A stretch of 23,473 nt of DNA, taken from contig JAEOTJ010000173.1 of assembly GCA_016839905.1 (NCBI GenBank), positions 1-23,473 of the forward strand. Direction: 5' to 3'. Within the stretch, counting starts at the first letter, position 1. Every line of letters begins with the position of its first letter. This document shows positions 2,926 to 20,003 of the stretch, piece after piece. The position numbers and the translations under genes were made by a program. Below the pieces are notes generated by a model. That model searched no databases. It was given only the letters and a program-made list of their open reading frames with translations, and was not told where the DNA came from. The stretch comes from Promethearchaeota archaeon (GTDB lineage Archaea; Asgardarchaeota; Lokiarchaeia; Sigynarchaeales; SOKP01).

Positions 2926-3578
2926 ATGACAAGATATGAAATTAGAATAGCGGGGTATGGCGGTCAAAGCAAGAGAGATCTCCTCTTTGCGTCAATGGCG
3001 TTATCACGCTTTCAAAAATGATCATAACGGCATCTTCTTTATATGAGGGTTTAGCAGCCACGCAAACCGAGGCGTACAGTGCCGCAGCTAGAATATTACT
3101 ATAAACGAGTAATTTGGTTAAAGGCGGCAGATGTTGGGCAGAAGTAGTTGTTGATCTCGATAGTAATATAAGACAGATAGATTACCCACGCGCATCGGAG
3201 CCCTACGATGCATTAATCGTTCTCTCAGAAGAAGCTGCAAGGGACATTAAACCAAATTTTTTAAAAAAAGAAGATACAGGATTTCTTATTTGGGATTCTT
3301 CAACAATCAATAGATTTAGAGCGGCTAAAAAAATTAAGAAAGCATTGAGTTTGCCAGTTCAGAAGCTTTCAATTGAAAGGTTTGGGAATACGGTATTTGG
3401 AAATTCAATAATTTTTGGTGCTTTTACTATCATGGCGAATATTTTTTCAGAGGAATCTGCCATCCAAACAATTAAAAAATTTGTTCCAAGCCCAACTTTA
3501 AGCAAGAATTTAGAAGCTTTTGAATTAGGAAAACAAAAAGGGCAAGAATTTATATCTAAATTACAAGAGGCGGCATGA
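2926..3578 (+). CDS. 2-oxoacid:acceptor oxidoreductase gamma-type subunit, split by two BHB introns
   Basis: Three coding blocks lie in different frames: 2926-2967, 2997-3091 and 3122-3578. Joined, they give 197 residues, a normal length for PorG/KorC-type gamma subunits. The product starts MTRYEIRIAGYGGQ, continues GVITLSKMIITASSLYEG and ATQTEAYSAAARGGRCWAE, then DYPRASEPYDALIVLSEEAA, all family hallmarks. Without splicing the first frame stops at 3022-3024, and the second block runs into a TAA inside the second insert. Everything outside the inserts is intact, with no other stops or gaps, so this does not look like a decayed gene. The ATG at 2926 begins the conserved TRYEIRIAGYGGQ. The stop at 3576-3578 directly abuts the ATG of the FrhB-PyrK fusion, implying one operon. 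No alpha or beta subunit is in the window. The block 3114-3578 alone would start from a TTG inside an intron and should not be taken as the gene. Confidence 0.88.
2968..2996 (+). other. 29-nt BHB intron (gamma subunit, intron 1)
   Basis: The insert sits between CAA (Gln) and GGC (Gly) of the GGQ-G motif; removing exactly 29 nt restores GYGGQGVITL. Fold: exon 2962-2965 (GGUC) faces intron 2991-2994 (GUCA) with two Watson-Crick pairs plus U-U and G-A. Bulge 1 is AA|A (2966-2968). The inner helix is 2969-2975 with 2983-2990 (U2986 unpaired) and a 7-nt loop. Bulge 2 is AU|G (2995-2997). An unusually long exon-exon helix follows: 2960-2961/2998-2999, 2954-2957/3002-3005 and 2949-2952/3007-3010, separated by mismatches. 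Cuts after the second nucleotide of each bulge coincide with the boundaries demanded by the protein. The length is not a multiple of three. Confidence 0.82.
3092..3121 (+). other. 30-nt BHB intron with in-frame stop (gamma subunit, intron 2)
   Basis: The insert interrupts the AGA codon before GGC GGC, at the AAR-GGRCWAE junction. Fold: exon 3086-3089 (AGCU) pairs with intron 3116-3119 (GGUU) through two Watson-Crick and two G-U pairs. Bulge 1 is AG|A (3090-3092). The inner helix is 3093-3100 with 3108-3115 (one U-U mismatch, core AUUACU/AGUAAU) and a 7-nt loop. Bulge 2 is AA|A (3120-3122). The exon-exon helix is 3080-3085 with 3124-3129, six perfect pairs, leaving G3123 unpaired. The reading frame through the insert carries a TAA, so unspliced mRNA cannot make the full subunit. 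Confidence 0.85.
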
Positions 3579-5396
3579 ATGAAAATTAATAAAATTCAAA
3601 AAGGTTGGAATGAATTAGATTCTGAAATTGTCAAAACTGGAAAATGTCTCTATTGTGGAGCATGTGCTGCTTTTTGTTTAAACATTAAATATGATAAAGA
3701 TAAAGAAATCCCCACTGAAGATGGTTCATGTAAGGATGTGAATACATGTCGAGATGGTTTTGGAGTTTGTTATAATTTATGTCCTAAAACTGGGATTGAA
3801 CAAATACCCGTATCTTTATTGGATAAATGGGTATTTGGAAAGAGACAAGATAAAATATTAGGTCATTATATAGAGATTATATCTGCAAGATTAACTGATT
3901 CTGGAAAAACCGCCATTAATGGAAATGCTGGACCAATAACAGGGCTTTTAACTGTAGCAATGGAAAAAGGTTTAATTGACGCAACAATAGTAACAGGTAA
4001 AGATGAGAATTATAGACCCTATCCTATAATTGTGGATAATCCAAAAGATTTAATCCAATCCATTGGTTATAAACCAAGTCAGAGTCCTACACTTTCTTTA
4101 GTTGGAGTAGCTATTAATAAAGAGAATGTGGATATTGCTGTAGTCGGAACTCCTTGCCAAATTCAATCATTACGCAAAATGCAAAATCATCCTGAACTTG
4201 ATTTCGAAGTTCATGATTTAGTTTCTCTTGCTATAGGAACTTTTTGTTTCGGTACGTATCATAATCAACTCCTAGCAGAATGTTTTAAGGAAAATGGAGT
4301 AAATCCTACTGAAATAGAAAAGATTGAATCTGATTATAATTATTTTAAAATGATAATCTCAACAAAATCTGGAAAGAAGGAAATTTCTCTTAATTATTTG
4401 CATGATAAGGCAATAAAAAAGGTTTGCTATACGTGTTCTGACTACACGGCATCATTTTCGGATATTTCTGTTGGAAATGTAGGTAGTGAAAAAGGATGGA
4501 AAACTTTAATTATTAGAACTGAACGAGGAAAACAAATCTTAGATTTAGCAATAGAGAAGGGTTATCTTGAGACAAATTCATTATCAAAGGATAAAGAAGA
4601 ATTAATTTTAGATCTTACTAGAGCTAAAACAGATATAATTAAAATTGAAGCCATCCAAGAACATTCTCCAGAAATTAAAAGTTTTATATTAAGAAGCGAG
4701 AGAATCGCTAGAACATATCGTCCAGGAATGTTTGTCATGCTTTGGTTACCAGATATCGATTTTTTACCCATGTCAATTTCTAATGTTAATGGAAATCAAA
4801 TAGAAATTACCGTGCAAAAAATTGGCGAAGGAACGGTAAAATTATTTGATTTAAAGGTGGGTGATAGCATTGGGATAAGAGGTCCTTTTGGAAATTCTTG
4901 GAATTATGAAGATGCTCAAAATATACTTGTTGTTGGCGGGGGAATGGGCATCGCAGCATTGACATCCTTAATAGAACCTTTAAAACAAAATAAAAAGAAT
5001 GTAACTGTAACAATTGGAGCTAAAGATGATACATCATTAATTTTTGTTGATCGTTTAATTGAACTCATACCAAGTACAATGTGTTCCACTGATGATGGTT
5101 CTATTGGGAAGAAATGCTATGTAACAGACACCATTATGGATATTCTCGCTAATAATGATATAGATTTAATAATGACGTGCGGCCCAGAAGTCATGATGAA
5201 AAAAGTTATGGAAATTGCTACTGAAAAAAACATAATGCTGCAGGCTTCTCTTGAGAGAAAAATGAAGTGTGGAGTAGGTTCATGTGGATCATGTTGTATG
5301 GGTGAAAATAATGATATTACCGTTTGTAAAAATGGTCCAATTTTCAATTCAAAGCAGTTAAACAATTTTCCGCAATTTGGAAAATATTTTAAGTAA
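3579..5396 (+). CDS. FrhB/FpoF-like iron-sulfur protein fused to PyrK/DHOD-type flavin reductase
   Basis: The protein has 605 residues in two parts. Residues 1 to about 345 resemble the coenzyme F420 hydrogenase/dehydrogenase beta family: an N-terminal cysteine cluster CLYCGACAAFC, further cysteines in CKDVNTC and VCYNLCP, a VVGTPCQIQSLRK segment, and the family's C-terminal signature CSDYTASFSDISVGNVG followed by GWKTLIIRTERG. Residues from about 350 resemble the dihydroorotate dehydrogenase electron-transfer subunit (PyrK) and ferredoxin reductases: an FAD-binding barrel (RPGMFVMLW, LPMSIS), an NAD(P)-binding motif GGGMGIAAL, and a [2Fe-2S] site CGVGSCGSC plus a later Cys. It likely shuttles electrons between NAD(P)H, flavin/Fe-S centres and F420 or ferredoxin; the direction cannot be told. 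It follows the gamma subunit without a gap, so the two are probably one functional unit. Confidence 0.88.
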   Translation: MKINKIQKGWNELDSEIVKTGKCLYCGACAAFCLNIKYDKDKEIPTEDGSCKDVNTCRDGFGVCYNLCPKTGIEQIPVSLLDKWVFGKRQDKILGHYIEIISARLTDSGKTAINGNAGPITGLLTVAMEKGLIDATIVTGKDENYRPYPIIVDNPKDLIQSIGYKPSQSPTLSLVGVAINKENVDIAVVGTPCQIQSLRKMQNHPELDFEVHDLVSLAIGTFCFGTYHNQLLAECFKENGVNPTEIEKIESDYNYFKMIISTKSGKKEISLNYLHDKAIKKVCYTCSDYTASFSDISVGNVGSEKGWKTLIIRTERGKQILDLAIEKGYLETNSLSKDKEELILDLTRAKTDIIKIEAIQEHSPEIKSFILRSERIARTYRPGMFVMLWLPDIDFLPMSISNVNGNQIEITVQKIGEGTVKLFDLKVGDSIGIRGPFGNSWNYEDAQNILVVGGGMGIAALTSLIEPLKQNKKNVTVTIGAKDDTSLIFVDRLIELIPSTMCSTDDGSIGKKCYVTDTIMDILANNDIDLIMTCGPEVMMKKVMEIATEKNIMLQASLERKMKCGVGSCGSCCMGENNDITVCKNGPIFNSKQLNNFPQFGKYFK

Positions 5397-5440
5397 TCCG
5401 TAAGTTTTTTAATCTGTAAGTTTATTAATTTTTAGAGGAT

Positions 5441-5450
5441 TTTTTTTTTT
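5441..5450 (+). terminator. Oligo-T tract after the gamma/FrhB-PyrK operon
   Basis: An uninterrupted run of ten T lies 45 nt after the stop codon at 5396. Archaeal transcription terminates at such coding-strand oligo-T tracts without needing a hairpin. It is close to the start of the next gene (5471), so it could also simply be A+T-rich leader. Confidence 0.35.
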
Positions 5451-5470
5451 ATAGAAATAGGTCATAGAAA

Positions 5471-6196
5471 ATGAATGAAGATAGGAATATGTTTAATGCC
5501 CCAGCAGAGAAAGATAAAAATGCTATAGATTCTCAAATTTTAGAAAAAATAGCTCTGATTAAACAAGAAGAAGATGGTCCTGGTAGTAAAATAAATAAGT
5601 TCCATTTATTAAAAGATATTATCACAACTCAAAGACAAGAAATTTCGTGGAAAAATGAGGATATTAAAAATTTAGAGGGTAAAATAGTCAAATTAACTGA
5701 AGAAATCTTCGAGCTAGGTAAGAGAAATGAAATTGAAAGGATGGCAGATTTTTCTGATAGGGAAATTAATGAATTAAAAACAACTATTGATAGATTAGAA
5801 AAAGAGTTACAGAGTTTAAAGTTTAAAAATACAGAATTAGAAGCTGTAAATAAAAAAAGCGAAGAGACAAATAGAATGCTAAAAGCAGCATTGTTAATGA
5901 CGGTAGATACGGAAACCAAAAATGTTGCTGAAGCCCCTGAAACATTATCAGAAGATAAACTTATTGAAGTCAAAACATCTGAGGATAAGACAGTTGGCTT
6001 AACCCAAGGACCTAGCAAGGTTCAAGCACCCCTCGAAGATGGAGACCAACATGAAAGAAAAAGGAAGTGTCCTAGCTGCGGTGCCACGAGCGCATTCATA
6101 CTTGAAATTGATGATAAATCGCACATAATTTATCAGAATCCTACCATTTATGGTAAAAAGTACAAGTGCGGCGATTGTCGATACGATTGGAAATAA
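5471..6196 (+). CDS. Coiled-coil protein with C-terminal zinc ribbon
   Basis: The protein has 241 residues and an unknown specific role. Residues about 20-145 are strongly charged with heptad-like spacing (KNEDIKNLEGKIVKLTEEI, DRLEKELQSLKFKNTELEA), which predicts a long coiled coil. Residues 145-200 are an acidic, low-complexity linker. The last 45 residues form a zinc ribbon: CPSCG, then about 30 residues later YKCGDCRYDWK. The layout is like TFIIS-type or RPB9-type ribbons, whose second knuckle reads CxxCxYxW. A long coiled coil tethering a ribbon is a common plan in Asgard archaeal proteins of unknown role. It is a stand-alone gene between the electron-transfer operon and the SDR gene. Confidence 0.8.
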   Translation: MNEDRNMFNAPAEKDKNAIDSQILEKIALIKQEEDGPGSKINKFHLLKDIITTQRQEISWKNEDIKNLEGKIVKLTEEIFELGKRNEIERMADFSDREINELKTTIDRLEKELQSLKFKNTELEAVNKKSEETNRMLKAALLMTVDTETKNVAEAPETLSEDKLIEVKTSEDKTVGLTQGPSKVQAPLEDGDQHERKRKCPSCGATSAFILEIDDKSHIIYQNPTIYGKKYKCGDCRYDWK

Positions 6197-6301
6197 TTTT
6201 TATATCATTTTTTAATGCTTTGAAAATCCATTAAAAGAAAAATTAATTATTTTCTACTATTTCTAATCTTAAACTATATTTTAAAAGATGGTTAAATTAA
6301 T

Positions 6302-7063
6302 TTGAACTCTAAAAACATTTTAATTACTGGATCAGGTTCAGGGATTGGAAGAGCAATGGCAATTAGATTAGCATCAGAAGGTCATAATATTATATTAAAT
6401 GGCAGAACTGAAAGTAAATTAGTTGAAACAGAGACAATGTTAAAAGTTTATGATATAAAAACGATGATTAAGGCTGGTGATGTCTCAAATTCCGCTTTTG
6501 TCAAATCGATGATTTCCGATATTGTGAGTGAATGGGAATTACTGCATGTTGTGATTAATAATGCTGGAATTAGTGGAGATCCAGCTTCAGTAATAGATAT
6601 TTCAGAAGAAAAGATGCAAAAAATCATGGATATTAATTTCAAGGGAACTTGGTTAGTATCTAAATTCGCAGCCAAAATAATGAAGAAGCAGAGAAAATTA
6701 AAGCCCATAAGCGGCAAAATTATTAATGTATCTTCCATCGCAGGGAAAAATCCTTGGAAACTAATTGGAATTTATGGTTGTAGCAAGGCGGCAATAAATG
6801 TATTAACAATAATAATGGCAAAAGAATTAGCTCCAAGGATAACCGTAAATGCTATTTGTCCGGGTTTTCATGTCACGCCCATTTACAAGGATAATCCTAA
6901 TTTAATTGAGGATATGATGTCAATCGCAAATTTAAAACCAGTATTAGGAAGAATAGGAACCGCTGAAGATGTTTCAGGATTAATTTCGTTCTTGGTTTCA
7001 GAGGATTCAAATTATATGACGGGACAATCAATTAATATTGATGGTGGAGCCGTTTTTCATTAA
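6302..7063 (+). CDS. Short-chain dehydrogenase/reductase (SDR), 3-oxoacyl reductase-like
   Basis: A classical SDR of 253 residues with an NAD(P)-binding Rossmann fold. The nucleotide motif TGSGSGIG lies at residues 9-16, with INNAG in the middle, the catalytic serine in NVSSIAG, and Tyr/Lys in YGCSKAA. The C-terminal SDR phrase MTGQSINIDGGAV is present. The start is TTG at 6302, because the Rossmann strand NILITG begins four residues later and no upstream ATG fits. The likely reaction is NAD(P)H-dependent reduction of a 3-oxoacyl thioester or a similar ketone; the substrate is not resolved. It is convergent with the unknown gene at 7090-7455. Confidence 0.88.
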   Translation: MNSKNILITGSGSGIGRAMAIRLASEGHNIILNGRTESKLVETETMLKVYDIKTMIKAGDVSNSAFVKSMISDIVSEWELLHVVINNAGISGDPASVIDISEEKMQKIMDINFKGTWLVSKFAAKIMKKQRKLKPISGKIINVSSIAGKNPWKLIGIYGCSKAAINVLTIIMAKELAPRITVNAICPGFHVTPIYKDNPNLIEDMMSIANLKPVLGRIGTAEDVSGLISFLVSEDSNYMTGQSINIDGGAVFH

Positions 7064-7089
7064 ATAAATTTTTAAGAATATAAAAAAAA

Positions 7090-7455
7090 TTAAGCGCTAA
7101 AATCTCCTAATTTATTGATGACAGAAAAGTCCCCCTTTAAAGCTCCTTTTACAATCTGAGTCATACTATCCGGTAATTTACCTAAAGTCTCACTAACTTT
7201 TAATAAATCTTCTTTATTTTGCATCATGATATCAATCTTTTGGGACTCTTCATTAATATTAATTTCCATAGGGACCTCTTCCTTTAATCCGCCAAAAATT
7301 CTCAGCATGTCCTTGATTTCATATTCTTCTCCTAATTCTTTTTTGGATCCCTTCTTTCCCTTAATGAGAATGCTCAAGGTTAAGGTATTTTCATTTTTTT
7401 GAATTTCTATTGTCTCTTCTAACAACCTTTTCATGTTACCAATAAATCTTTCCAT
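7090..7455 (-). CDS. Small hypothetical protein
   Basis: This 121-residue protein is not recognised. It is soluble, rich in Lys and Glu, and appears to alternate strands and helices (ETIEIQKNENTLTLSILIKG, PMEININEESQKIDIMMQ). A C-terminal helix-rich part follows (KEDLLKVSETLGKLPDSM). There are no cysteines, no signal peptide and no membrane segment. It lies 28 nt downstream of the S15-type hydrolase on the same strand, so co-transcription is likely. The body, a beta-rich N-terminal half and a helical C-terminal half, is loosely like small lipid- or ligand-binding proteins, but this is only an impression. Confidence 0.6.
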   Translation of the reverse strand: MERFIGNMKRLLEETIEIQKNENTLTLSILIKGKKGSKKELGEEYEIKDMLRIFGGLKEEVPMEININEESQKIDIMMQNKEDLLKVSETLGKLPDSMTQIVKGALKGDFSVINKLGDFSA

Positions 7456-7483
7456 TTTAAATCATCCATCTATTATTTTATCA

Positions 7484-9304
7484 TCAAATTTCGTTTCTAA
7501 TTTTAATAGGAATGTCGATAAAAGAAGCATTTAAAGCATTTCGTGCAATTTTTATCGTAGGTTTACCCTCAGGAGGGTATTGTTTAAAAGTATCCTTATC
7601 CGCACCCGCAATGGCAAGTTTGAGGCGATGTCCTTTAGGAATGAAAACTGATGTGGGCCTAAATGCAAATGTAGCTTCGACTATTTCACCAGGTACTATT
7701 GGAGTCGAATCTTTTTTCAAGTAGGAATGATAGGGTACTAAAATCTTGTAAGGAGGTTTCTCTGTCGATATTTTTCGATGAAGTAGACGCAGATTTCCAT
7801 CTGAAAAATAATGGATATTGCCCTCTTCATCCAGTTCTTCTAAATATGCATAAATCGCTCCATCTTCATGCGTTGAGGAAAGAAATAAGCTTATAGTTGC
7901 GTGTCCTGTAATTTCTATATTTTCTTGTAAGGGCGGACTAGTATAACATAACAATCTTTTGTCAGCTTTTTCTCTATTTGAATAATCAATTGGTAATCCT
8001 AAAAGAGTCCACCATCGATTCAATCTACCAGATGTGGCCCGAAAGTTAATTTTATAACTATCTTCTCCTTGTTGGCTCTCTGGTTTTGATACTGATAAGG
8101 TATTTCCATCTGTCAAATACCATTTTTGTCTGTTCATTCCTTCGGGAGGCCAAGAATGAGTCTTTTTCCATTTTTCTTCGCCCATTGTATAATAATAAAG
8201 AGTTTTTCCTTGAATATCCTCACCATAAATGATATTTTCAAAGAAATCTATCCACTTAGTAATTCGTTCTTTTGGAGATGGTGAGACTTTATGCTTTTCA
8301 GGGCTAAGCGGGTTACCTGGAAAGGAGGCACCATGGTTCCAATCTCCTATTATTGCTATGTGTGGATTTTCTAGATTAATAAATCGATTAATTACAGAAT
8401 CAACATACGCAGAGTCTAGCCATGATACCCAACTTAGCACTTTAACATTTGATTTTTCAAGTTCTTTTTTATGAGGGAATGCGCTGATATCATCAATAGT
8501 AGAGCCATCTGGAAGAAGATCATCTCTGAAGTCCTTATCGTTAGATAATTCATAGACATATACGTTCGAACCGTGTTCTTTAATGGCTTCCTTTAATAAA
8601 CTCTCGTTACTATCAGAGTCAATAGGTTTGACACCTTTCATGAGGAGCCATCCAATGGGTATTAATTGCCGCATGGGTGTGCAGTCGTTATGATCAAGCT
8701 TTTTTCCCATAAAAGACCACATTTGCATAAAGGCCTTGTTATAACATCCTCCGGGCGCGACAATATCAGTAAAAGCATCCCATAGAGAGTGTCCGGGCAT
8801 TACTGCCTTCACTGCGGGATGATTATTTGTTGCGAGTAATTCGGCTGATAATCCAGAATATGAAATTCCATTGGCTACCACATTTCCATCTGACCATGGC
8901 TGCGAAATGATCCAATCAACAATTTCCGGGCTATCCTTATTTTCTTCCTTTGAAAAGGGATATGGTCGAGTCCCAAAAGATGCTCCACACCCTCTTACAT
9001 CCGTATAAACAACGGCATACCCTCGATTTGTAAACAATCTGGGCGTAGGTGAGTTTATTAATGTTTCTCTAAATATCCACCTAAATGGAATTCTTAGTTT
9101 GGAAGATCTCCAATATCTTGTTTGAAATAATAGAGTAGGTATCTTAGTGCCATTAGCTAATCCTTTAGGAAGGCAAATTGTCGCAGCAATTTTCACATCA
9201 TCTCTCATTTGAATGTAGATATTAGTTATGCTATAATCCTCATAATTTTGCCTTTCTGGAGAATTCCATTTTAACATGAAGGGATTGTCATTATTATCGC
9301 CCAT
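7484..9304 (-). CDS. CocE/NonD family hydrolase (peptidase S15-like)
   Basis: A 606-residue alpha/beta hydrolase of the X-Pro dipeptidyl-peptidase/cocaine esterase type. The N-terminal domain carries DVKIAATICLPKG, the segment VVYTDVRGCGASFG, and the nucleophile elbow GISYSG with Ser148 as the likely nucleophile. The expected Asp is in the region LSWVSWLDSAYVDS and the likely catalytic His is in GDWNHGA. The C-terminal part, from about residue 390, is a jelly-roll domain (TGHATISLFLSSTHEDGAIYA; FIPKGHRLKLAIAG), as in the family. No signal peptide is seen, so it is probably cytoplasmic. The substrate could be an ester, amide or proline peptide. It is followed by a small unknown gene in the same direction. 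Confidence 0.88.
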   Translation of the reverse strand: MGDNNDNPFMLKWNSPERQNYEDYSITNIYIQMRDDVKIAATICLPKGLANGTKIPTLLFQTRYWRSSKLRIPFRWIFRETLINSPTPRLFTNRGYAVVYTDVRGCGASFGTRPYPFSKEENKDSPEIVDWIISQPWSDGNVVANGISYSGLSAELLATNNHPAVKAVMPGHSLWDAFTDIVAPGGCYNKAFMQMWSFMGKKLDHNDCTPMRQLIPIGWLLMKGVKPIDSDSNESLLKEAIKEHGSNVYVYELSNDKDFRDDLLPDGSTIDDISAFPHKKELEKSNVKVLSWVSWLDSAYVDSVINRFINLENPHIAIIGDWNHGASFPGNPLSPEKHKVSPSPKERITKWIDFFENIIYGEDIQGKTLYYYTMGEEKWKKTHSWPPEGMNRQKWYLTDGNTLSVSKPESQQGEDSYKINFRATSGRLNRWWTLLGLPIDYSNREKADKRLLCYTSPPLQENIEITGHATISLFLSSTHEDGAIYAYLEELDEEGNIHYFSDGNLRLLHRKISTEKPPYKILVPYHSYLKKDSTPIVPGEIVEATFAFRPTSVFIPKGHRLKLAIAGADKDTFKQYPPEGKPTIKIARNALNASFIDIPIKIRNEI

Positions 9305-9360
9305 AATAAAATCATCTTATAATTTTAAATAAGTCTTACTTGATCTTTTCAAAAGTATCT

Positions 9361-11514
9361 TTATTGGTATGGTTTTATAACATGAATAACATCATCATAA
9401 TCAATTCCTAACTCCTTTACTAGTTCAATTGTCGGACAACCAAACGCATTCCAACCACGTTTTCTATAAACTGCTTCTTGAAGTTTTAAATATTGAATCT
9501 CTCTATATTTTCTTAATATTTTCATTTTCTCCTCCGTGGATTTCCCTTCAATATTTATATCCAATTCCTTCAACTGTTCATCATATCTCTCTTGGCGACT
9601 TTCGTATTCCATCTTAGTTACGGGGCCCATCGCTCGATAGGGAAGATTTGAATCGTGCTTTCTTAAGCCCTTCCCTTGTCGAATACTGAAAACTTTTTGT
9701 AAATTGTATACTCGCTCAGACATTTTTATTAAATCATCTGGTTCAGATTTAATTCCTGTAACTGCAGAATAATAATCAGCATACCATTGTACGTGCTGAG
9801 GTATCTTAGCTTGTATTAATTCCCCTCCCATTTTTATCGGTAAATCGTAGTTAGAGGGAGGAGGTACATCATTCCAGCCCAATTTACAGAGCCCGACCAG
9901 CCCGAACCATGTACGCCAAAGTGGAAACCAATAAAGTGCTTTGGCTTTATCTTCGAATGTTGGGATTGAATGCCGGACTATATCTTCAAAAATAAGCCAT
10001 GCTTCGTCATGCTGGGGCCCTTTTAAAGCGTAACCGTAACCTCCTTGTTGGGTAAGGCTCTCTTTGGTTATATATTCTGAGAATTCTAATCCTTTGTGCT
10101 CCATCCCGATGTCTTGGAGGAATTGGGCGTCAGCGTTATATTTTTCAGCGAAAAGTTTCTTTAAACGTTTTATTCCTTGGCCTATGACTACTCCAAAACC
10201 TTCATCCCTTGCCATCTGATGAATTAATTCAAGAGCAGCTTCAGCATTTCCAAAACTTAAATCGAGCCCTCCAGTGATCTCTTTATTTATTATACCTTCT
10301 TCAAAACATTCCATTATAAAAGCAATTCCCGTACCAACTCCGATCGTATCTAAACCATATGTATCGCAATAAAAATTTGCTTCAAGCACCCAATTAATGT
10401 CCCATACTCCCCAATTGGATCCACAACCTGCCACAGTCTCATACTCGGGACCATCTACAATGACCTTTTCACCCTTAAATGGACCTGTCTTTAGTTCATA
10501 ATCATTTACCCAGTGGGAACAACTTATGCTGCAACCTAACCAGCAATTATCTTGGCCCTTACCTGTAGTTTCTCCAAAGACTTCAAACCATGCTTGGCGA
10601 GTATAGGGGATATTTTTATCTTTTATCTCGCGATGTTGACCAAGTCTATAATTTTCTGTTGGTAATAAGTCTGAGATATTCATAATATCTGTTAAATATC
10701 CTCCTGTACCAACAAATCTCATTTGGTTCATTTTTGGATCCCATTCAACAATTTCCTTCTTATGCTTAGTTCCTATTTCAAGTAATTTATCAACATCTGC
10801 GGGATCATTTTTAATTGCTCCATAAACAGGACCACGACATATAAGAGCTTTCAGTTTCTTATCTGCAAATACTGTTCCAATACCTCCACGACCAGCTTGT
10901 TTGTAAGAAGCCCATTTTCTCTTTCGGACATACCAGGAAGAGTTTAACATCCCCCACCTCGAGAATCTAGCAGCTGGACCCGTGCTTACTACAGCCGTAA
11001 GTTGCTTTTCTTTCTCAGTCGGTTCCTTCGCATATTTCTCAGTTAATTGTTGAGTAAGTATATGAGAATATTCTGATAGTCCGTCAGATTCTTTAACTTT
11101 TTCAATCTGAACAATATGATCCTGACCGTTAATAAAAATAATCACTTCTTTTTCTGCTTTCCCTTGAATTTCAATAGCATCAAAGCCCGACAATTTGGAA
11201 TACGGTCCAAAATGACCCCCTACATTACTGTCTATAATTATACCCGTTAGCGGAGATATTGTGGTCACAATGGATTTTCCACCACCAGGATAATAAGTTG
11301 AGGCTCCAAGTGGTCCCGTGGCCCAACAAATTTCATTTTCTGGATCATCCCATTTGACAATGCGGTCTTTAGGAAGGCCGTTCCACATGAGCCAGAGGTC
11401 AAATCCCCTTCCACCGATGAATTTTTCTTTCATTTCATCTGTGACGGGTTTAATGGCGATTTCATTTGCCGTTAGGTTAATGTATAGCGTTCGCCCAGTA
11501 TAGCCTCTCTCCAT
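9361..11514 (-). CDS. Tungsten-dependent aldehyde:ferredoxin oxidoreductase (AOR family)
   Basis: The enzyme has 717 residues if the ATG at 11514 is used. This is preferred over the TTG at 11550, because the family normally begins with a phrase like MERGYTGRTLYINLT. AOR enzymes oxidise aldehydes to acids, passing electrons to ferredoxin through a tungsto-bispterin site and a [4Fe-4S] cluster. Visible family marks are IGGRGFDLWLM, ATGPLGASTYYPGGGKS, the pterin-loop QAGRGGIGTVFADKKLKA, and the cluster cysteines in CWLGCSISC with a later GLCKLGW. The first three cysteines are spaced C-x3-C-x3-C, whereas the Pyrococcus AOR type is C-x2-C-x3-C. The chain is about 100 residues longer than Pyrococcus AOR, with extra charged sequence near the C-terminus (ESRQERYDEQLKELDINIE). 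It could be one of the less characterised AOR subfamilies rather than AOR itself. Confidence 0.9.
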   Translation of the reverse strand: MERGYTGRTLYINLTANEIAIKPVTDEMKEKFIGGRGFDLWLMWNGLPKDRIVKWDDPENEICWATGPLGASTYYPGGGKSIVTTISPLTGIIIDSNVGGHFGPYSKLSGFDAIEIQGKAEKEVIIFINGQDHIVQIEKVKESDGLSEYSHILTQQLTEKYAKEPTEKEKQLTAVVSTGPAARFSRWGMLNSSWYVRKRKWASYKQAGRGGIGTVFADKKLKALICRGPVYGAIKNDPADVDKLLEIGTKHKKEIVEWDPKMNQMRFVGTGGYLTDIMNISDLLPTENYRLGQHREIKDKNIPYTRQAWFEVFGETTGKGQDNCWLGCSISCSHWVNDYELKTGPFKGEKVIVDGPEYETVAGCGSNWGVWDINWVLEANFYCDTYGLDTIGVGTGIAFIMECFEEGIINKEITGGLDLSFGNAEAALELIHQMARDEGFGVVIGQGIKRLKKLFAEKYNADAQFLQDIGMEHKGLEFSEYITKESLTQQGGYGYALKGPQHDEAWLIFEDIVRHSIPTFEDKAKALYWFPLWRTWFGLVGLCKLGWNDVPPPSNYDLPIKMGGELIQAKIPQHVQWYADYYSAVTGIKSEPDDLIKMSERVYNLQKVFSIRQGKGLRKHDSNLPYRAMGPVTKMEYESRQERYDEQLKELDINIEGKSTEEKMKILRKYREIQYLKLQEAVYRKRGWNAFGCPTIELVKELGIDYDDVIHVIKPYQ

Positions 11515-11550
11515 CTCTCGATGTTCGTATTTTTTCTCTGCTAAGATCAA

Positions 11551-11765: not shown

Positions 11766-11766
11766 G

Positions 11767-11836
11767 ACATTTGCGGCGACGGTGGCAACAACACGCATAA
11801 TGTTAACAATGTCACCAACAAGGCGAATGTAATAGA
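11767..11836 (+). ncRNA. Candidate structured RNA (possible H/ACA-like guide or 5' leader element)
   Basis: A G+C-rich island in very A+T-rich DNA that folds well. Stem 1 is 11767-11774 with 11823-11830, eight pairs including one U-G. A symmetric internal loop of six plus six nucleotides follows (11775-11780, 11817-11822). Stem 2 is 11781-11787 with 11810-11816, seven pairs including one G-U. A small hairpin of 11790-11793 with 11801-11804 sits inside the terminal loop. Just after stem 1 comes AAUAGA, which holds an ANA-type triplet. A stem, a pocket, a stem and an ANA tail is the archaeal H/ACA plan, but no clear kink-turn is seen. The element ends 33 nt before the SCP2 start at 11864, so a cis-acting leader is the alternative. 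The strand is assigned from that context. Confidence 0.45.
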
Positions 11837-11863
11837 CCATAATAAGTATAAGATGTGTGTAAA

Positions 11864-12253: not shown

Positions 12254-12261
12254 GTGATTAT

Positions 12262-12651
12262 ATGGATAAGAAAGAATTGCAAATTAAAATGTTTGTTTAT
12301 ATCATGATGAAAGCTGTTGAAGAGATTGCTAAAGTTGACGAAGAGATGCAGGAAGACATGGAGGAATATGTAGTAAAAATTCAATGGAGGATTGGTGAAA
12401 ACGTAAAGGGATATCAAGTTTTCAACGAAGGAGAATATTCATATGCTTTGGATGCTGAAATTGATGATCCTGATGTAACCATGACAATTAATGATATAGA
12501 TAAAGCAAAAGCCTTCTTTATGGGAGAAATAGATGGAACTTCTGCATACATGTCTGGAGATCTTACAATTGAAGGAAGCCTACCTTTGATTTTAGAATAT
12601 AATAATATTGCAGATCATATCATGGATTATTTAGAGCCAATAAGAGGGTAA
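12262..12651 (+). CDS. SCP2-like sterol/lipid carrier domain protein (second copy)
   Basis: A 129-residue paralogue of the preceding gene with the same order of elements: an N-terminal helix (MFVYIMMKAVEEIAKVDEEM), YVVKIQWRIGENVKGYQVF, then DPDVTMTINDIDKAKAFFMGEIDG and AYMSGDLTIEGSLPLILEYN. The phrase SGDLTIEG aligns with FNVIGDQQ of the first copy, and DPDVTMTI with SPSLTIEI. It is preceded by GGTGAT five bases before the ATG, a good Shine-Dalgarno match. Probably the two proteins act together, for example as a heterodimeric lipid carrier, but this is inferred only from the tandem arrangement. Confidence 0.68.
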   Translation: MDKKELQIKMFVYIMMKAVEEIAKVDEEMQEDMEEYVVKIQWRIGENVKGYQVFNEGEYSYALDAEIDDPDVTMTINDIDKAKAFFMGEIDGTSAYMSGDLTIEGSLPLILEYNNIADHIMDYLEPIRG

Positions 12652-12809
12652 ACAGTTTTTATTAAGATATATTAAATTTATTTCAATTATATTTTTTTAA
12701 ACTTTTTTTTATTGAAAGTTGAAGGTTTAAGAGATTTTTAAAAAGAAGTTAAATTAAAAATAATTCATTCAAATAATTTATTTCTAATAATTTATTTCTC
12801 CTTAATAAC

Positions 12810-13763
12810 TTGGATAATGATAATATAAAAAAAGGAATTATTTTTGGAATAATTGGAGTCTTAATAGTAGGATTTCAGCCAATAATCGCTAACTCAAGAC
12901 CTGCAATACTCGATTTTTACATCTTTGCTGCTATGACCATGATTGTAGAAGCATTAATCTTCTTTCCTCTCCTTCTTTTAGAGAGAAGAAAGATTAGGAC
13001 GAATTATAAGAATAAATTAATCACTTTTGAAGAAAAGGATTCATTACTTAACGGATATAAGAAAAATATGCTTCTCCTAATCTTTGTGGGTGTTGCTTTT
13101 GGTATTGGAATGATGCTTTTCTTTATTGGTTATCAGGAAGCAGGAGTGATAAATGGCTCCTTAGCTCAAAAATCAACGGTAATTTTTTCTTTATTATTTG
13201 GTTTTTTAATTTTAGGGGAAAGAATTTCAAAAAGTCAAATCTTTTTTTCATTAGTATTATCATTTGGACTAATATTAGCCGTTACTCAGGGTTCTTTCAA
13301 TTTACTTGAGTTTAATGCAGGAGTTTTAATAATACTCATATTATCAGGAATTTGGATGTTAGGTCATACATTGACTAAGCCAGTCCTCGATAGAAATGAA
13401 GCTACTCCCATTTTGATCATATTTTTGCGAAATTTAATTGGGGGGATTTTGTTATTTCTTACATATTTCTTGTTTTTTCCCATATCAAATCTAAGATTTT
13501 TTCATGATCCAATCAATATTTTCTTTTTTATTGTAATGGGCGTGGTGTATGGAACCGGGTTATATTGTTGGTATCAAACTCTCTCATGTTTAGATGTTTC
13601 CAAAGCTTCAATATTAGTTTCACCCACTCCTATTATAACGGCTTTATATGCCATTTTATTTTTTGGAGTTTTTCTAAACATTTACCAACTTATTGGAACG
13701 TGTATAGTTATTTTATCAATAATTTTACTTTTTAGAGAAAAGGAAAGTGATGAAAAAAAATGA
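12810..13763 (+). CDS. DMT-superfamily (EamA-like) permease
   Basis: A 317-residue membrane protein starting at TTG 12810. About ten hydrophobic helices are visible in two halves: for example GIIFGIIGVLIVGF near the N-terminus and GVLIILILSGIWMLGHTLT at the start of the second half. The EamA repeat ends are recognisable as SLLFGFLILGERISKSQIF in the first half and ALYAILFFGVFLNIYQLIG in the second. Such proteins export or import small metabolites; no substrate can be read from the sequence. A charged cytosolic loop (LLERRKIRTNYKNKL) interrupts the first half. It is flanked by long A+T-rich spacers and stands alone. Confidence 0.82.
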   Translation: MDNDNIKKGIIFGIIGVLIVGFQPIIANSRPAILDFYIFAAMTMIVEALIFFPLLLLERRKIRTNYKNKLITFEEKDSLLNGYKKNMLLLIFVGVAFGIGMMLFFIGYQEAGVINGSLAQKSTVIFSLLFGFLILGERISKSQIFFSLVLSFGLILAVTQGSFNLLEFNAGVLIILILSGIWMLGHTLTKPVLDRNEATPILIIFLRNLIGGILLFLTYFLFFPISNLRFFHDPINIFFFIVMGVVYGTGLYCWYQTLSCLDVSKASILVSPTPIITALYAILFFGVFLNIYQLIGTCIVILSIILLFREKESDEKK

Positions 13764-13808
13764 AACTATCTGATAGAAGTTTTCTATTGGTTCATAATCT
13801 CGACAAAC

Positions 13809-14255
13809 TTAGATTGAATTTACGATTTTTTTTGGTTTTATCAAGGAGATATGTATCGATACAAGACTCGCTATAATGATCAATAGGATCTGAACCCATA
13901 AAATTGATATAAATATAATTGAAATTATAATCGTTATCCATAAAAGGATTATTGTAATTGCCTTTACTTTAAAGGTAAGTCCTTTACCAGCTCGATAATC
14001 TCTTATTATTTTTCCAAATAGTTTATTATTTAATAACCAATTATATGCTTTTTCTGAACTTCTATAATAACAAGCTGCGGCTAAAAGTAAAAAGGGCGTT
14101 GTAGGAAATATAGGTATAACTATCCCAATAATACCTAATATTAAGCTGGTTGTACCAGCGATATAATATAATCCTCTTTTTAATTTACTTTGGGATATTT
14201 TAAGTTCCTTTGAAGTATTTTCCTCAAGTCTGGTTTCTAATTCTTCAGTCATCAT
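13809..14255 (-). CDS. DUF454 (YbaN-like) inner-membrane protein
   Basis: A 148-residue protein matching the DUF454/YbaN family. After a charged N-terminus comes RGLYYIAGTTSLILGIIGI, then the family signature PIFPTTPFLLLAAACYYRSS. The segment NWLLNNKLFGKIIRDYRAG follows, and then two hydrophobic helices near the C-terminus. The role of the family is not established. It lies downstream of katG on the same strand with a gap of 41 nt, but its base composition is A+T-rich like the host and unlike katG. Confidence 0.85.
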   Translation of the reverse strand: MMTEELETRLEENTSKELKISQSKLKRGLYYIAGTTSLILGIIGIVIPIFPTTPFLLLAAACYYRSSEKAYNWLLNNKLFGKIIRDYRAGKGLTFKVKAITIILLWITIIISIIFISILWVQILLIIIASLVSIHISLIKPKKIVNSI

Positions 14256-14296
14256 TAAAGTTTAAACCTCAATAAAAAAAAATTAAGATTAAGGTA

Positions 14297-16516
<2,220 letters not shown>

Positions 16517-16548
16517 TTAGAATTTTTAATTTTAAACCCACTTAAAAT

Positions 16549-16600
16549 TATACTATTGATTCATTATTTTAGTATAGTTATAATTCTATGTCTTATAATT
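16549..16600. promoter_or_regulatory. Candidate PerR operator between katG and perR
   Basis: The spacer between the divergent genes holds an inverted repeat TATACTA (16549-16555)/TAGTATA (16570-16576). It also holds two copies of TTATAATT (16578-16585, 16593-16600) spaced 15 bases apart, about one and a half helical turns. The known Bacillus PerR box is TTATAATNATTATAA, so TTATAATT is a matching half-site. In such A+T-rich DNA, chance matches are easy. Confidence 0.35.
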
Positions 16601-16729
16601 TATTTAATCAATATTCATTCCTAAGTAGGATTGAATACTAAATGATTTTTATTATTAAAAAAGGTTATCTTTATATAATAAAAGTTATTTTTAGATCACA
16701 GAATATATTTTAAAATAAAACATAAACAA

Positions 16730-17167
16730 GTGCTATCGATGGATGATGATGAACTGATTAATCTTTTTAGAGATAAGGGATTTAAAGTAACAGTTCAACG
16801 ATTAACAATATGCAAATACGTGTTAACAAGAGATGATCATCCATCAGCAGATCAAATATATCAAGCTTTAAAAATTGATTATCCTACAATAAGTTTGGGA
16901 ACCACTTATAAGACACTACATTTATTAAAAGAGCTTGGATTGATACAAGAACTTGGATTTAACGAGGGTACTATAAGATATGATCCCGATGTGGTTCTTC
17001 ATATCAATATTGTATGTAATAAATGTGGTAAAATATATGACCACAAACCTGAGGATCTTGAGATTTATTGGGAAAAAATACTCTCTACACTGGATTTTGA
17101 ACCTCAAGGTCAGCGGATTGACATTTATAAAGAATGCAAAGAATGTAGAAATCCTTTAAAGTTGTAA
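16730..17167 (+). CDS. perR: PerR-type peroxide-sensing Fur family repressor
   Basis: A 145-residue Fur-family regulator. From the GTG at 16730 the key residues fall at the same numbers as in Bacillus PerR: His37 (DDHPSAD), Asp85 (RYD), His91, Asp104 (KIYD), and the zinc cysteines 96, 99, 136 and 139 (CNKC, CKEC). Position 93 is Asn, where Bacillus has the metal ligand His. Asp104 is the usual mark of PerR rather than Fur. PerR represses peroxide-defence genes until its Fe-bound histidines are oxidised by H2O2. The divergent neighbour katG is the natural target. The ATG at 16739 is an alternative start. The next gene follows after 7 nt. Confidence 0.88.
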   Translation: MLSMDDDELINLFRDKGFKVTVQRLTICKYVLTRDDHPSADQIYQALKIDYPTISLGTTYKTLHLLKELGLIQELGFNEGTIRYDPDVVLHINIVCNKCGKIYDHKPEDLEIYWEKILSTLDFEPQGQRIDIYKECKECRNPLKL

Positions 17168-17174
17168 TATATAA

Positions 17175-18107
17175 ATGAAAAAGTCTAAATTAGAATATGA
17201 GGATTATTGGTTTAATTACGTTTTAAAAACTGATCCTAACAAAATTAAAGCAATAATTAAAGAAGAATATATAGAGTCTGATAATTTAAAAATCCATTTG
17301 GATATCTATGATAATGAACGCTCGCTAGATAAAACAATTATTTTTATTCATGGTACATCAGTTTACAGTCGATTTTATGCAGAATTCTGTTATAATCTTT
17401 ATACTAAAGGATATCAGATTGTTGCACCTGATATGATTGGTCATGGTTTGAGTGAAGGAGTTAGAGGTCATTTTACTATGAATGAATACACTAAAACTAT
17501 TTATAATGTAAGTTCTTACATAATAGATAACTATAATGATAATATAATTGTAATGGGATCGAGTTTGGGAGGAATAACTTCATTATATTGTGCTGCTAAT
17601 GATAATAGATTAAAAGGGGCTATTTGTCATAATGTGGCAATTTTTAATGAAGAAGCTCATAAAAAAATCATTAGAGGAGATAAAAGATTCGAAGATTTAA
17701 AAGCAAAAGTACCTAAATTAGCAAAAATCTCTCCCAAATTTAAAGCAAGTGTTCTAAGTTATTTGGATTTCAGTAAATTAGCAAAATCAAAGAAGATGCA
17801 AGATGTAATAGATGTTTTATTAAAGGATAAGATTTTAGCTTTAAAATATACTCTTACCTCGCTAATGACTCAAATGACTGCTCCTTTATCGAGGCCTGTC
17901 GAAAAAATTGAAATACCAGTAATGATAATTAATGGAAATGAGGATATTTTATTTTCTGTTGACTATATGAAAGAGATTTTTAACAGACTAACGTGTGAAC
18001 ATAAAAAATTGGAAATCATTGAAGGAGCATCGCATTTAATCCTCCAAGAAAACATTAATGATGTTATTTCATGCATAATTCCATGGATAGAAAAGGTTTT
18101 ATATTAA
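17175..18107 (+). CDS. Alpha/beta hydrolase, monoacylglycerol lipase-like
   Basis: A serine hydrolase of 310 residues. The oxyanion region is IIFIHGTSVYSRFY, followed by VAPDMIGHGLSEGVRGHF, a phrase typical of monoacylglycerol lipase/lysophospholipase (Hydrolase_4) proteins. The nucleophile elbow is MGSSLGG, the Asp is in INGNEDILF and the His in EGASHLI. No signal peptide is present, so a cytosolic lipid esterase is likely. It is transcribed 7 nt after perR and may share its promoter, so it might be peroxide-responsive; that is inference. Confidence 0.85.
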   Translation: MKKSKLEYEDYWFNYVLKTDPNKIKAIIKEEYIESDNLKIHLDIYDNERSLDKTIIFIHGTSVYSRFYAEFCYNLYTKGYQIVAPDMIGHGLSEGVRGHFTMNEYTKTIYNVSSYIIDNYNDNIIVMGSSLGGITSLYCAANDNRLKGAICHNVAIFNEEAHKKIIRGDKRFEDLKAKVPKLAKISPKFKASVLSYLDFSKLAKSKKMQDVIDVLLKDKILALKYTLTSLMTQMTAPLSRPVEKIEIPVMIINGNEDILFSVDYMKEIFNRLTCEHKKLEIIEGASHLILQENINDVISCIIPWIEKVLY

Positions 18108-18182
18108 GAAATAAGTTTAAATTGTAATTCAGAGTAATGTATAATATTACAGGAAATAATATTTTTTTTTCAATTACCCAAA

Positions 18183-19031
18183 ATGCTTGAAATGGACACT
18201 CAAAGTTTAGAGATATCATGTCCCATTTGTGAAATTTTAAAAAGCATAAATGTTCCTAAACAAATCTTTTCACAAAAAAAATTTGGAATGATTAAAATTC
18301 AAGTTCCTCCAAATGTAACTTGCGAACATCATTATATCGTGTTTGTAGATGTAAAAGGAACTGTGAAAGGTTATGAAAAAATTGATATCCAAATGCAGCC
18401 ACTTTCAGTAGAAGAAATGGCAGATAGATCGATATTAACAATTTCAAAATTTATTCAAATATTTGGAGCATATGGATTGTCTTGCCTAATACATGCGAAA
18501 ATATTTAATTATCCGGCATATATCATGCGAGGGGCAAATACGGATGGACTTAATGAAAAATTCATTAATGCCATGGGAGATCATATCCTTCCTACAAGAT
18601 ATCGTGGAACAAGTTCAATAACTTTTCTTGAAGAAACTATTTTAAAAAACATTAAGCTAAAAGATAAAGATATATTATTGATTGATTCGCAAAAAAATAT
18701 ATTGCAAACTCCATGGGAAGAAAAATTAAAATTTGAAGAATTTGTCATTAACAAGGCTTTAGAGATTATTAATGATAAAGAACAATTTATCATAGTAGAA
18801 CAGGAGATTGCAAAATTGATTAAGGAAGCCGAGTATGTTAATAAATTCCTTGAAAATATAAAAGAAATTTATGAAGATGACTTGATAGAAAAAGTATCAA
18901 GTGAATTAATGCTTCCAAAAATGAATTACTATCGTTTAAACTTAATTAAAGAATTTTTAAGGAGACGATATTCGCCAAAACTTATTTCAAAAATAAAGAA
19001 TAAAGTTGAAGAATTTTTAAATCTAATTTAA
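18183..19031 (+). CDS. Unknown protein with N-terminal CPIC motif and C-terminal helices
   Basis: A 282-residue protein not recognised as a named family. Near the N-terminus is CPICEI, then a beta-rich part with CEHHYIVFVDVKGTVKGYEK. The CPxC and CEHH elements could form a Cys/His zinc site. Residues 75-165 look like an alpha/beta domain of roadblock- or longin-like size (SILTISKFIQIFGAYGLSCL; ITFLEETI). The C-terminal 100 residues are helical and charged (EQEIAKLIKEAEYVNKFLEN; LIKEFLRRRYSPKLISKIKN). Asgard genomes hold many small GTPase-regulator domains of this style, but nothing here proves it. It is not tightly linked to its neighbours. Confidence 0.7.
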   Translation: MLEMDTQSLEISCPICEILKSINVPKQIFSQKKFGMIKIQVPPNVTCEHHYIVFVDVKGTVKGYEKIDIQMQPLSVEEMADRSILTISKFIQIFGAYGLSCLIHAKIFNYPAYIMRGANTDGLNEKFINAMGDHILPTRYRGTSSITFLEETILKNIKLKDKDILLIDSQKNILQTPWEEKLKFEEFVINKALEIINDKEQFIIVEQEIAKLIKEAEYVNKFLENIKEIYEDDLIEKVSSELMLPKMNYYRLNLIKEFLRRRYSPKLISKIKNKVEEFLNLI

Positions 19032-19144
19032 TTCTAAGTCTAAGTATTCTTTTTTCTTAAATAACAGAATTTTTAAAAATAATGATCATTAATTACTATT
19101 AAAAAATAATTCAATTCTTATAATTTGAAAAAGTGTGGTAAAAT

Positions 19145-20003
19145 ATGAGTAAATTAGTTGGCGACTGGGGTTTTAAAAACCGATTTAATAGAATTGTCAA
19201 GCCAAAAACTGGTCGATGCGTAATGCTTGCAGTCGATCATGGATATTTTGGAAACATACCCGGACAATTAAAAGATTTTTCTAGCCTTGGTCCATTGTTT
19301 GAACACGCAGATGCATTGATGCTGACACGAGGAATGCTTAGGAATAGCGTCCCTTCAGAAGTAGATAAACCCATAGTATTAAGGGTTTCAGCAGGAGCAA
19401 GTATGTTAAAAGAGCTTTCAAATGAAGAGATTAACGTCACCATCGAGGAAGCCATTAGATTAAATGTAGCAGCAATTACATGCTCTATTTTCGTAGGTGG
19501 CGAGCATGAAAAGCAGAGTTTATTAAATCTTTCAAAACTTGTAAATTGGGGTCAACAATATGGAATTCCCACGCTTGCAGTCACTGCAGTTGGTCGTGAA
19601 ATGGTAAGAGATGCTCGATATTTAGGGATGGCAAGTAGGATGGCCGCAGAGATGGGTTCTACGTTTGTAAAGACGTATTATTGTGAGGAATTTGAAAAAG
19701 TAACAGGCATTTGTCCATCACCGATTGTCATTGCTGGGGGCTGGGGATTGGTTTTCCTAATCCTCCCCTACAAAAAGATCCCAGAACGGGATGCACTGCA
19801 AATGGCAAGGAATGCTATTGATAAGGGAGCTGTCGGCGTAGACTATAATTGAGAGAAAAATTATAGGCGCATATATGGGAAGGAATATTTTCCAATCTGA
19901 CAGCCCAATTGGCATGATAAAAGCAGTAAGGGCAGTAGTTCATGAAGGCGCATCAGTAGATGAAGCATTTGAAATTTATAAAAATGGTCCGAAAGGATTA
20001 TAA
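19145..20003 (+). CDS. DhnA/LsrF-type class I aldolase, split by two BHB introns
   Basis: The coding blocks are 19145-19741, 19772-19841 and 19873-20003. Joined, they give 265 residues, close to the class I archaeal-type aldolase family (FbaB, LsrF and related). Marks are AVDHGYF, ALMLTRGM, the Schiff-base lysine region FVKTYY, IVIAGG and GVD-MGRNIFQSD. The unspliced frame reads on through the first insert but stops at 19850-19852 inside the second. The real C-terminus (MGRNIFQSDSPIGMIKAVRA and on to KNGPKGL) sits in another frame with no defect. E. coli LsrF reads IVIAGGKKLPEREALEM and GVDMGRNIFQSD at these places, so both inserts can be placed to within a nucleotide or two. The stop overlaps the end of the convergent surface-protein gene. 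It probably cleaves or thiolyses a phosphorylated sugar; the substrate is open. Confidence 0.92.
19742..19771 (+). other. 30-nt BHB intron, in frame and stop-free (aldolase, intron 1)
   Basis: Removing it joins IVIAGG to KKIPERDAL, the exact family sequence; left in, it would insert ten residues, WGLVFLILPY, into the phosphate-binding loop. Fold: exon 19736-19739 (GGGG) pairs with intron 19766-19769 (CCCU). Bulge 1 is GC|U (19740-19742). The inner helix is 19743-19751 with 19757-19765, nine unbroken pairs including two G-U, and a 5-nt loop. Bulge 2 is AC|A (19770-19772). The exon-exon helix beyond is weak (U19735-A19773 only, then mismatches). Cuts after the second bulge nucleotides match the boundaries required by the protein. 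Confidence 0.83.
19842..19872 (+). other. 31-nt BHB intron with in-frame stop (aldolase, intron 2)
   Basis: Removing it turns GTA G|AT ATG GGA into the conserved GVDMGRN. Fold: exon 19836-19839 (GCGU) pairs with intron 19867-19870 (GCGC), three Watson-Crick pairs and one U-G. Bulge 1 is AG|A (19840-19842). The inner helix is 19843-19850 with 19859-19866 (CUAUAAUU/AAUUAUAG), eight perfect pairs, with an 8-nt loop. Bulge 2 is AU|A (19871-19873). The outer exon-exon helix is poor. The length shifts the frame, and a TGA lies within the insert, so full-length enzyme requires removal. Confidence 0.86.

Follow-up and report, generated by a model that had tools for sequence, protein, structure and literature searches.

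The locus considered here raises the question of how two of its genes can yield protein at all. It lies on a piece of a Lokiarchaeal contig, 23,473 nucleotides (nt) long (contig JAEOTJ010000173.1 of assembly GCA_016839905.1; the whole stretch is referred to below as the window), whose nearest aldolase relatives are records of Candidatus Lokiarchaeota. Read raw, the genes for a 2-oxoacid:ferredoxin oxidoreductase (POR) gamma-like subunit and for an LsrF-type aldolase are both broken, by inserts of 29, 30, 30 and 31 nt. A preliminary description, made from the letters of the window alone, had taken these inserts for minimal introns of messenger RNA (mRNA) with a shared architecture, belonging to a genome-wide population and probably handled by a relaxed-specificity endonuclease and the ligase RtcB. 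That observation is partly confirmed by the comparisons reported here, and its interpretation is supported. It now appears highly probable that the inserts are part of a family-wide set of ~30-nt elements, most of them with a bulge-helix-bulge (BHB) fold, which are predicted to be cut out by the splicing endonuclease and sealed by RtcB, and which were likely gained horizontally with replacement of the flanking exon DNA. The apparent horizontal gain with flank replacement, and the presence of an intron within the RtcB gene itself, go beyond what had been claimed before.

The inserts of the window

The POR gamma-like gene (2926..3578, on the forward strand like every feature of the window given here) has exons at 2926-2967, 2997-3091 and 3122-3578. 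Spliced, it gives a frame of 197 amino acids (aa) with zero stops, which aligns over about residues 1-195 with intron-free relatives; its NCBIfam POR gamma matches come from the last exon alone, and all are below cut-off. The aldolase gene (LsrF-type, class I family; 19145..20003; exons 19145-19741, 19772-19841 and 19873-20003) becomes a complete frame of 265 aa, likewise with zero stops, and NCBIfam NF006081 matches above cut-off across 19145-19849. The resulting junctions read GYGGQ/GVITL and AAAR/GGRC in POR gamma, and AGG/KKIP and GVD/MGRN in the aldolase, and conserved motifs are regained at all of them, save for 1-nt slides between identical bases. Because removal regains complete frames, and because the sites are empty in most relatives, the four inserts are, on comparative grounds, real; their lengths and positions are those originally described.

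The layout common to these introns is a 4-nt exon helix, a 3-nt bulge, an inner hairpin, a 4-nt stretch that pairs with the exon helix, and a second 3-nt bulge. The boundary defined by the protein falls after the second bulge nucleotide, between nucleotides 2 and 3 (equivalent slides allowed), which is the rule given for BHB motifs in PMC2738675. Three of the four window introns have this architecture. The four nucleotides said to pair back to exon 1 do so fully (4/4) in these three but not in the first intron of POR gamma, whereas the bulge triplets are as claimed throughout: AAA and ATG, AGA and AAA, GCT and ACA, AGA and ATA (U for T in the RNA).

Intron 1 of POR gamma (2968..2996; 29 nt; GGTC AA/A ... 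GTCA AT/G, with a slash at each boundary) breaks the GGQG motif. Its site, aa14, is also filled at the loci L127 and L129, both with 4/4 central pairs, and the central helix there is GGTC with GACT in genome G046 and GCCA with TGGT in genome G007, 4/4 in each. Intron 2 (3092..3121; 30 nt; AGCT AG/A ... GGTT AA/A) is a BHB whose exon side, 3086..3089, pairs 4/4 with 3116-3119 and whose inner stem has one mismatch; at L129 the same site has a TGCT with AGCA central helix and a perfect 8-bp inner stem. In the aldolase, intron 1 (19742..19771; 30 nt; GGGG GC/T ... CCCT AC/A; BHB score 29.1) pairs 4/4 between 19736..19739 and 19766-19769. It is in frame and stop-free, so that the finder of open reading frames (ORFs) reads through it, and it is missing from all 52 queries aligned there. 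Intron 2 (19842..19872; 31 nt; GCGT AG/A ... GCGC AT/A) pairs 4/4 between 19836..19839 and 19867-19870, a BHB helix that is seen in the minimum-energy fold; its site is also filled in L003, L007, L016, L048 and L049, with stems changed in pairs.

Distribution among Lokiarchaeal genomes

The wider population of ~30-nt introns in conserved genes that had been predicted was found, in patchy form, in the genomes of relatives: 35 candidates in 9 genes were catalogued from 14 Lokiarchaeal genomes and the window. Hosts include the genes for RNA polymerase A', EF-2, the CODH/ACS subunits CdhD and CdhA, and the RtcB ligase. Thirty nucleotides is the length of 21 of the 35, one of these being the hand-split part of a 65-nt insert. 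The catalogue is a non-random sample, with several introns per site (16 sites by label), and its nine-gene count treats two EF-2 paralogues separately. In at least seven cases the boundary was moved by 1-2 nt to an equivalent position, the slide in an aldehyde-ferredoxin-oxidoreductase-like gene altering one silent letter, and boundaries were set by hand for RtcB, for G045 (where the first 30 nt only are counted) and for EF-2 aa16 of G047. The insert of G017 labelled RNA polymerase A' aa79 sits 4 nt downstream of the other aa79 inserts, and EF-2 residues are numbered from a reference without its first 17 residues. The comparison set of 49 genomes was found through an aldolase search, and G051 was added from a separate search.

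In the aldolase gene, a structure-blind spliced aligner found inserts at 7 of 50 loci as well as in the window, one to three per carrier, leaving 43 loci without. Site aa222 corresponds to 19842-19872 of the window, and aa198, also filled in L048, to 19742-19771; aa32 (filled in L047, L048 and L049) and aa10 (filled in L018) are empty in the window. Of 30 POR gamma loci, two have inserts at the sites of the window (L127 at aa14; L129 at aa14 and aa45), and the others are empty at both, except that L108 is cut. A multi-gene comparison that covered the loci, the window and stretches of four genomes (G005, 1.2 Mb; G046, 379 kb; G007, 196 kb; G048, 239 kb) revealed two introns in RNA polymerase A' and one in CdhD, all of G007, and one in the aldehyde-ferredoxin-oxidoreductase-like gene of G047, alongside 127 in-frame insertions without a BHB, which were taken as ordinary indels.

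RNA polymerase A' carries introns in 6 of 46 sequences, some partial (G003, G007, G017, G037, G045 and G051). The rows of G007, G051, G019, G038 and G043 are partial, that of G038 being without the aa42 site, and alignment inserts at aa902-911, in the variable tail, were left out of the counts. Spliced, the G007 protein is identical over its first 100 aa to that of its sister G005. All five fetched stop-bearing copies of one EF-2 paralogue (G007, G012, G035, G017 and G047) have introns, as does the second EF-2 paralogue of G047, with up to three introns per gene overall; CdhA has one in G007. One of these carriers, G012, is a single-contig 'chromosome' record. The RtcB motif GGVGYDINCGVRL, intact in G007, is split by 29-nt BHB introns in G017 (L288, 283-311) and in G036 (L289, 185-213, minus strand). 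After removal no stops remain in the intron-bearing copies of the aldolase, POR gamma, RNA polymerase A' and EF-2/CdhA sets. Genes with a stop or break that stand outside the catalogue are EF-2 in G045, G018 and G048, CdhA in G006, and rpoB in G017.

Longer inserts occur at aa79-80 of RNA polymerase A', of 65 nt in L267 (G045; 2915-2979, minus strand) and of 50 nt in L268 (G017; 740-789). A strict two-step splicing search on these two found nothing. By eye the G045 insert looks like two introns, the first of 30 nt, with a 4-nt exon between them, and if the helix of the second spans the first junction, an order of splicing would be imposed. A search for the RNA polymerase A' N-terminus across the phylum gave a match in 206 of 227 genomes, and the 18 double-match genomes among the matches listed show no clear introns; what these 18 have instead are in-frame stretches that diverge, matches split over contigs or a second gene copy, with one unexplained TAG in G209. 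Near aa 460 of the same protein, G051:C88 and G065:C31 have a large open insert between collinear matches, which is intein-like.

On contigs picked blind to introns, 53 reference ORFs could be compared with G007 (a figure that leaves out the partial RNA polymerase gene), which has 4 introns there in 3 genes; G046 and G048 have none, against 71 and 34 comparable ORFs respectively. Between G007 and G005, 66 comparable genes contain eight insertions of at least 18 nt, all of them BHB-type introns, some of the G007 DNA having been chosen because intron-bearing genes lay on it. The set is therefore patchy, and heavy in some genomes. As to the sites themselves, POR aa14, aldolase aa222 and RNA polymerase aa42 are within the top 6-16% of sequence windows for conservation; conservation at aldolase aa10 and POR aa45 is no higher than about average.

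Pairing beyond chance

The central helix has 4/4 pairs in 30 of the 35 introns, 3/4 in two and fewer in three. The second bulge starts with A in 33 of 35, in agreement with the earlier statement that each intron ends in A plus one base. Central pairs number 130 of 140, against a mean of 63.6 and a maximum of 86 in 10,000 permutations in which partners were swapped among introns; with one intron per site the figures are 58 of 64 against 30.1 (maximum 47), and for the inner stem 186 of 210 against 95.8 (maximum 129). Swapping partners halves the pairing, which is specific to each intron. Stem letters also change at a single site while pairing is kept, as at POR aa45 (TGCT with AGCA versus AGCT with GGTT). 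When 20,000 coding positions were drawn at random with matched length and register, 5.0% had a 4/4 helix and none reached a full BHB score of at least 20. Scores of at least 22 are reached by 17 of the first 28 introns; the strict scorer reports no BHB in 10 of these 28, though several of the ten carry a 4/4 helix. The protein-restoring boundaries, empty sites, BHB register and compensatory stems are all read directly from the alignments. No group I or group II catalytic core was matched by Rfam at gathering scores in the window or in six intron-bearing loci.

Predicted splicing machinery

The preliminary description had pointed to the endonuclease subunit type and to RtcB as things to look for, and genes for both enzymes are present in most genomes. 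The splicing endonuclease family PF01974, for the most part encoded by separate genes of ~200 aa, is matched in 48 of 49 genomes (two or more times in 39); for RtcB the figure is 43 of 49. For the catalytic endonuclease subunit of G007 the best PDB match is to chains 3p1z_B/3ajv_B, from the heterotetramer of Aeropyrum pernix; the other subunit appears by eye to be without the catalytic histidine and has a weaker EndA match. Heteromeric splicing endonucleases have been linked with relaxed substrate recognition (PMC12397907, PMC2738675). In the mechanism proposed here, the inserts would be transcribed with the host gene and fold as a BHB in the pre-mRNA, the two-subunit splicing endonuclease would cut the intron out, and RtcB would reseal the exons. 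The enzyme genes are observed; splicing in the cell, and the part played in it by these two enzymes, are predicted from the fold of the inserts.

Several further observations touch this machinery. No introns of this kind turned up in the sister genome G005, which is also among the genomes with no RtcB match. In 3.25 Mb of Lokiarchaeal DNA, ARAGORN reported only 4 transfer RNA (tRNA) genes, or 16 once its intron option was switched on, which is fewer than expected, and Lokiarchaeal tRNA genes may be heavily interrupted. L045 (CP070739.1), titled Methanomassiliicoccales, has an aldolase that shares 79% identity with the Lokiarchaeal query across residues 7-199; it forms a long branch and the outgroup of the tree, and its endonuclease is a single 352-aa frame with two matches.

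Probable movement between species

Closely related genomes differ in their introns, as in the pairs G003/G006, G007/G005, G037/G040 and G045/G015, and the empty sites are exact. In such discordant pairs the exon DNA differs near the intron while the remainder of the gene is nearly identical. For RNA polymerase A', identity between G037 and G040 is 90-100% per 10 codons, falling to 70-87% in the first 60 codons, which hold the aa42 intron; between G051 and G005 it is 90-100%, falling to 73-77% over codons 60-90, around the aa79 intron. Among 25 close pairs for this gene, the six that are intron-discordant show the six largest local drops (0.09-0.16, against -0.03 to 0.07 in the other 19), in a test whose window (codons 30-90) and cut-off (0.92) were both picked after viewing the profiles and whose pairs share genomes. 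The script flagged five discordant pairs, G007/G051 being added by hand because only G007 has the aa42 intron, and the 'rest of gene' for G007 extends to codon 181. In EF-2, G007 and G005 are least alike at the intron (67% in that bin), with 80-83% around it and mostly 90-100% later.

Polarity was judged from the nearest outgroup. In G051, G003 and G037 it is the bearer that departs from its kin in the tract; over the RNA polymerase A' pairs the bearer is foreign in three of five and two are undecided, while tests in two other genes are mixed. The G051 tract is nearest to those of other bearers (G007, 0.896; G045, 0.885), and no donor for the tracts of G037 and G003 emerged from the genomes compared. 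Taken together, the local exon tracts and their outgroup polarity make it likely that the introns were gained horizontally with co-conversion, which likely explains most of these data. The local divergence of the exons is a direct observation; that it arose by recombination with the DNA of another lineage rather than by local mutagenesis is our interpretation. The introns would have spread by such recombination, with flanking exon DNA replaced too, driven either by a homing endonuclease acting in trans or by plain recombination; at ~30 nt they are too short to encode a homing endonuclease themselves. It is tempting to go further and suggest that 30-nt non-coding hairpins, spliced by the tRNA-intron machinery, move by homing from one Lokiarchaeal species to another and enter essential genes at fixed sites through conversion of the flanking exons, but this we offer tentatively, judging its chances to be somewhat short of even. 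Such elements would be the smallest mobile introns known to us.

Weighing of the evidence

A number of observations weigh against splicing by this machinery, or against horizontal gain. The central helix of the window intron at 2968-2996, GGTC with GTCA, has only 2/4 pairs and is non-canonical, and with aldolase aa10 of G018 and aldolase aa198 of G047 it makes up the three misfits among the 35. Plain folding energies at the four window sites are ordinary (z of -1.95, -1.67, -0.94 and -1.43). The aa10 insert of L018 (G018), which is in frame and has no BHB, could be an ordinary insertion. In the aldolase of L017 two in-frame stops persist, with no intron detected. The scan with a BHB descriptor proposed in the preliminary description, run without a reference over 2.34 Mb on both strands, gave 121 frame-restoring hits against 92-112 in length-shifted controls, overall not above background; 6 of the 10 frame-restoring hits scoring at least 25 are protein-supported introns. 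The descriptor alone cannot tell introns from chance. RtcB was not matched in G005, G010, G013, G014, G019 and G048, of which G048 is an intron bearer; these six may be incomplete assemblies. On a quick 51-row tree, the 13 carriers (labelled without the EF-2 carriers G012 and G035) imply at least 10 changes, against a mean of 11.8 for shuffled labels, 57 of 500 of which were as low, and carriers are thus not clustered beyond shuffled labels. Between G007 and G005, the dip in CdhA (57-80%) falls for the most part 20-60 codons downstream of its intron, and the CdhD flanks, with 109 of 120 positions identical, show little tract. The farther outgroup G011 reverses the polarity of G051, that of G007 is weak in RNA polymerase A' and mixed in the aldolase and POR, and G045/G015 leans toward the empty allele having been displaced. 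Silent flank sites are shared among bearers above expectation only at aldolase aa222 (p=0.004), one of seven sites, the other six being not significant.

Some of these points would be accommodated if the introns were ancestral to Lokiarchaeota and their patchiness reflected many precise losses, through complementary DNA (cDNA) or recombination with an intron-free allele. Loss would account equally well for sites that are identical in distant species yet empty in sisters, the polarity of G045/G015 leans this way, and the cbf5 introns of Crenarchaea show lineage-specific loss (PMC2738675). Loss through a cell's own cDNA, however, would leave the flanking exons unreplaced, yet tracts are present, and in G051, G003 and G037 the nearest outgroup makes the intron-bearing allele the displaced one. 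We therefore consider this account unlikely, if far from negligible. The divergence beside the introns might instead be a mutational scar of integration, left by error-prone repair, an alternative that has been discussed for fungal mobile introns (PMC5378118) and with which the want of donors for the G037 and G003 tracts would agree. Against it, the proteins are nearly unchanged while silent sites differ, including switches between serine codon boxes, and the G051 tract is nearest to those of two other bearers; imported DNA is preferred here, and a scar appears improbable.

Two further readings would dispense with splicing altogether. In translational bypassing the ribosome skips a hairpin, as in phage T4 gene 60 and the mobile hairpins of Magnusiomyces mitochondria, the latter being likewise short and mobile. 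Bypassing is expected to need matched take-off and landing triplets, and these occur in 0 of the 35; nor has exon-intron pairing in BHB register any known role there, which makes this explanation very improbable indeed. That the inserts are pseudogene lesions, assembly errors or tolerated peptides can scarcely be entertained: the sequences do come from metagenome assembly, 22 of the 35 lengths are divisible by three and 19742-19771 is open in frame, but identical sites recur across independent assemblies in hosts such as RNA polymerase A' and EF-2, removal leaves no stops, 13 of 35 shift the frame, and the spliced G007 polymerase equals that of G005 over its first 100 aa.

Elsewhere in the window, a catalase-peroxidase-like gene, named by eye, occupies 14297-16504 at ~50% G+C, against ~28% on either side, and was perhaps recently acquired.

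Relation to known introns and significance

Archaeal BHB introns in mRNA are already known from the cbf5 pre-mRNA of Desulfurococcales and Sulfolobales (Watanabe 2002; Yokobori 2009, PMC2738675); the multi-gene, apparently mobile form in Lokiarchaea is new. The cbf5 intron is described in PMC2738675 as confined to one gene and inherited from a common ancestor with losses. Unlike it, the Lokiarchaeal introns occupy nine genes, at up to three per gene, with 21 of 35 being 30 nt, and show signs of horizontal gain; cbf5 itself lies outside the genes searched in the Lokiarchaeal genomes. The BHB introns of archaeal tRNA and ribosomal RNA (rRNA) share the fold and the predicted enzymes, but their hosts are non-coding, and many rRNA introns encode homing endonucleases (PMC2738675), for which the Lokiarchaeal ones are too short. 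In Haloferax, a BHB intron in the 5'-untranslated region (5'-UTR) of HVO_1309 (PMC7714728) is cut from mRNA by the splicing endonuclease, as is predicted here, but it is a single case in untranslated sequence, whereas the Lokiarchaeal introns interrupt coding genes. That 2020 paper gives cbf5 as the sole other archaeal mRNA with a reported BHB intron. Homing group I and II introns of fungal mitochondria (PMC5378118) likewise lie in conserved genes with elevated exon divergence beside the intron; they are self-splicing, far longer and often equipped with endonuclease genes, while Rfam finds none in the seven sources searched here. No account of such introns in Asgard archaea was found in the open-access literature, preprints lying outside the search.

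The Lokiarchaeal lineage is usually placed near the ancestor of eukaryotes. If splicing of the introns does occur, spliceosome-free removal of introns from mRNA would be a routine need for core genes in this lineage, and some gene models of Asgard core proteins would be truncated or contain false inserts. The flank tracts make the gain of introns in archaeal mRNA directly testable, and the presence of introns in RNA polymerase and EF-2 bears on how prokaryotes in which translation is presumably coupled to transcription tolerate them. Lastly, if the intron in the catalytic motif of RtcB is what it seems, the ligase would be needed for the maturation of its own mRNA, and its expression may form a self-dependent loop.

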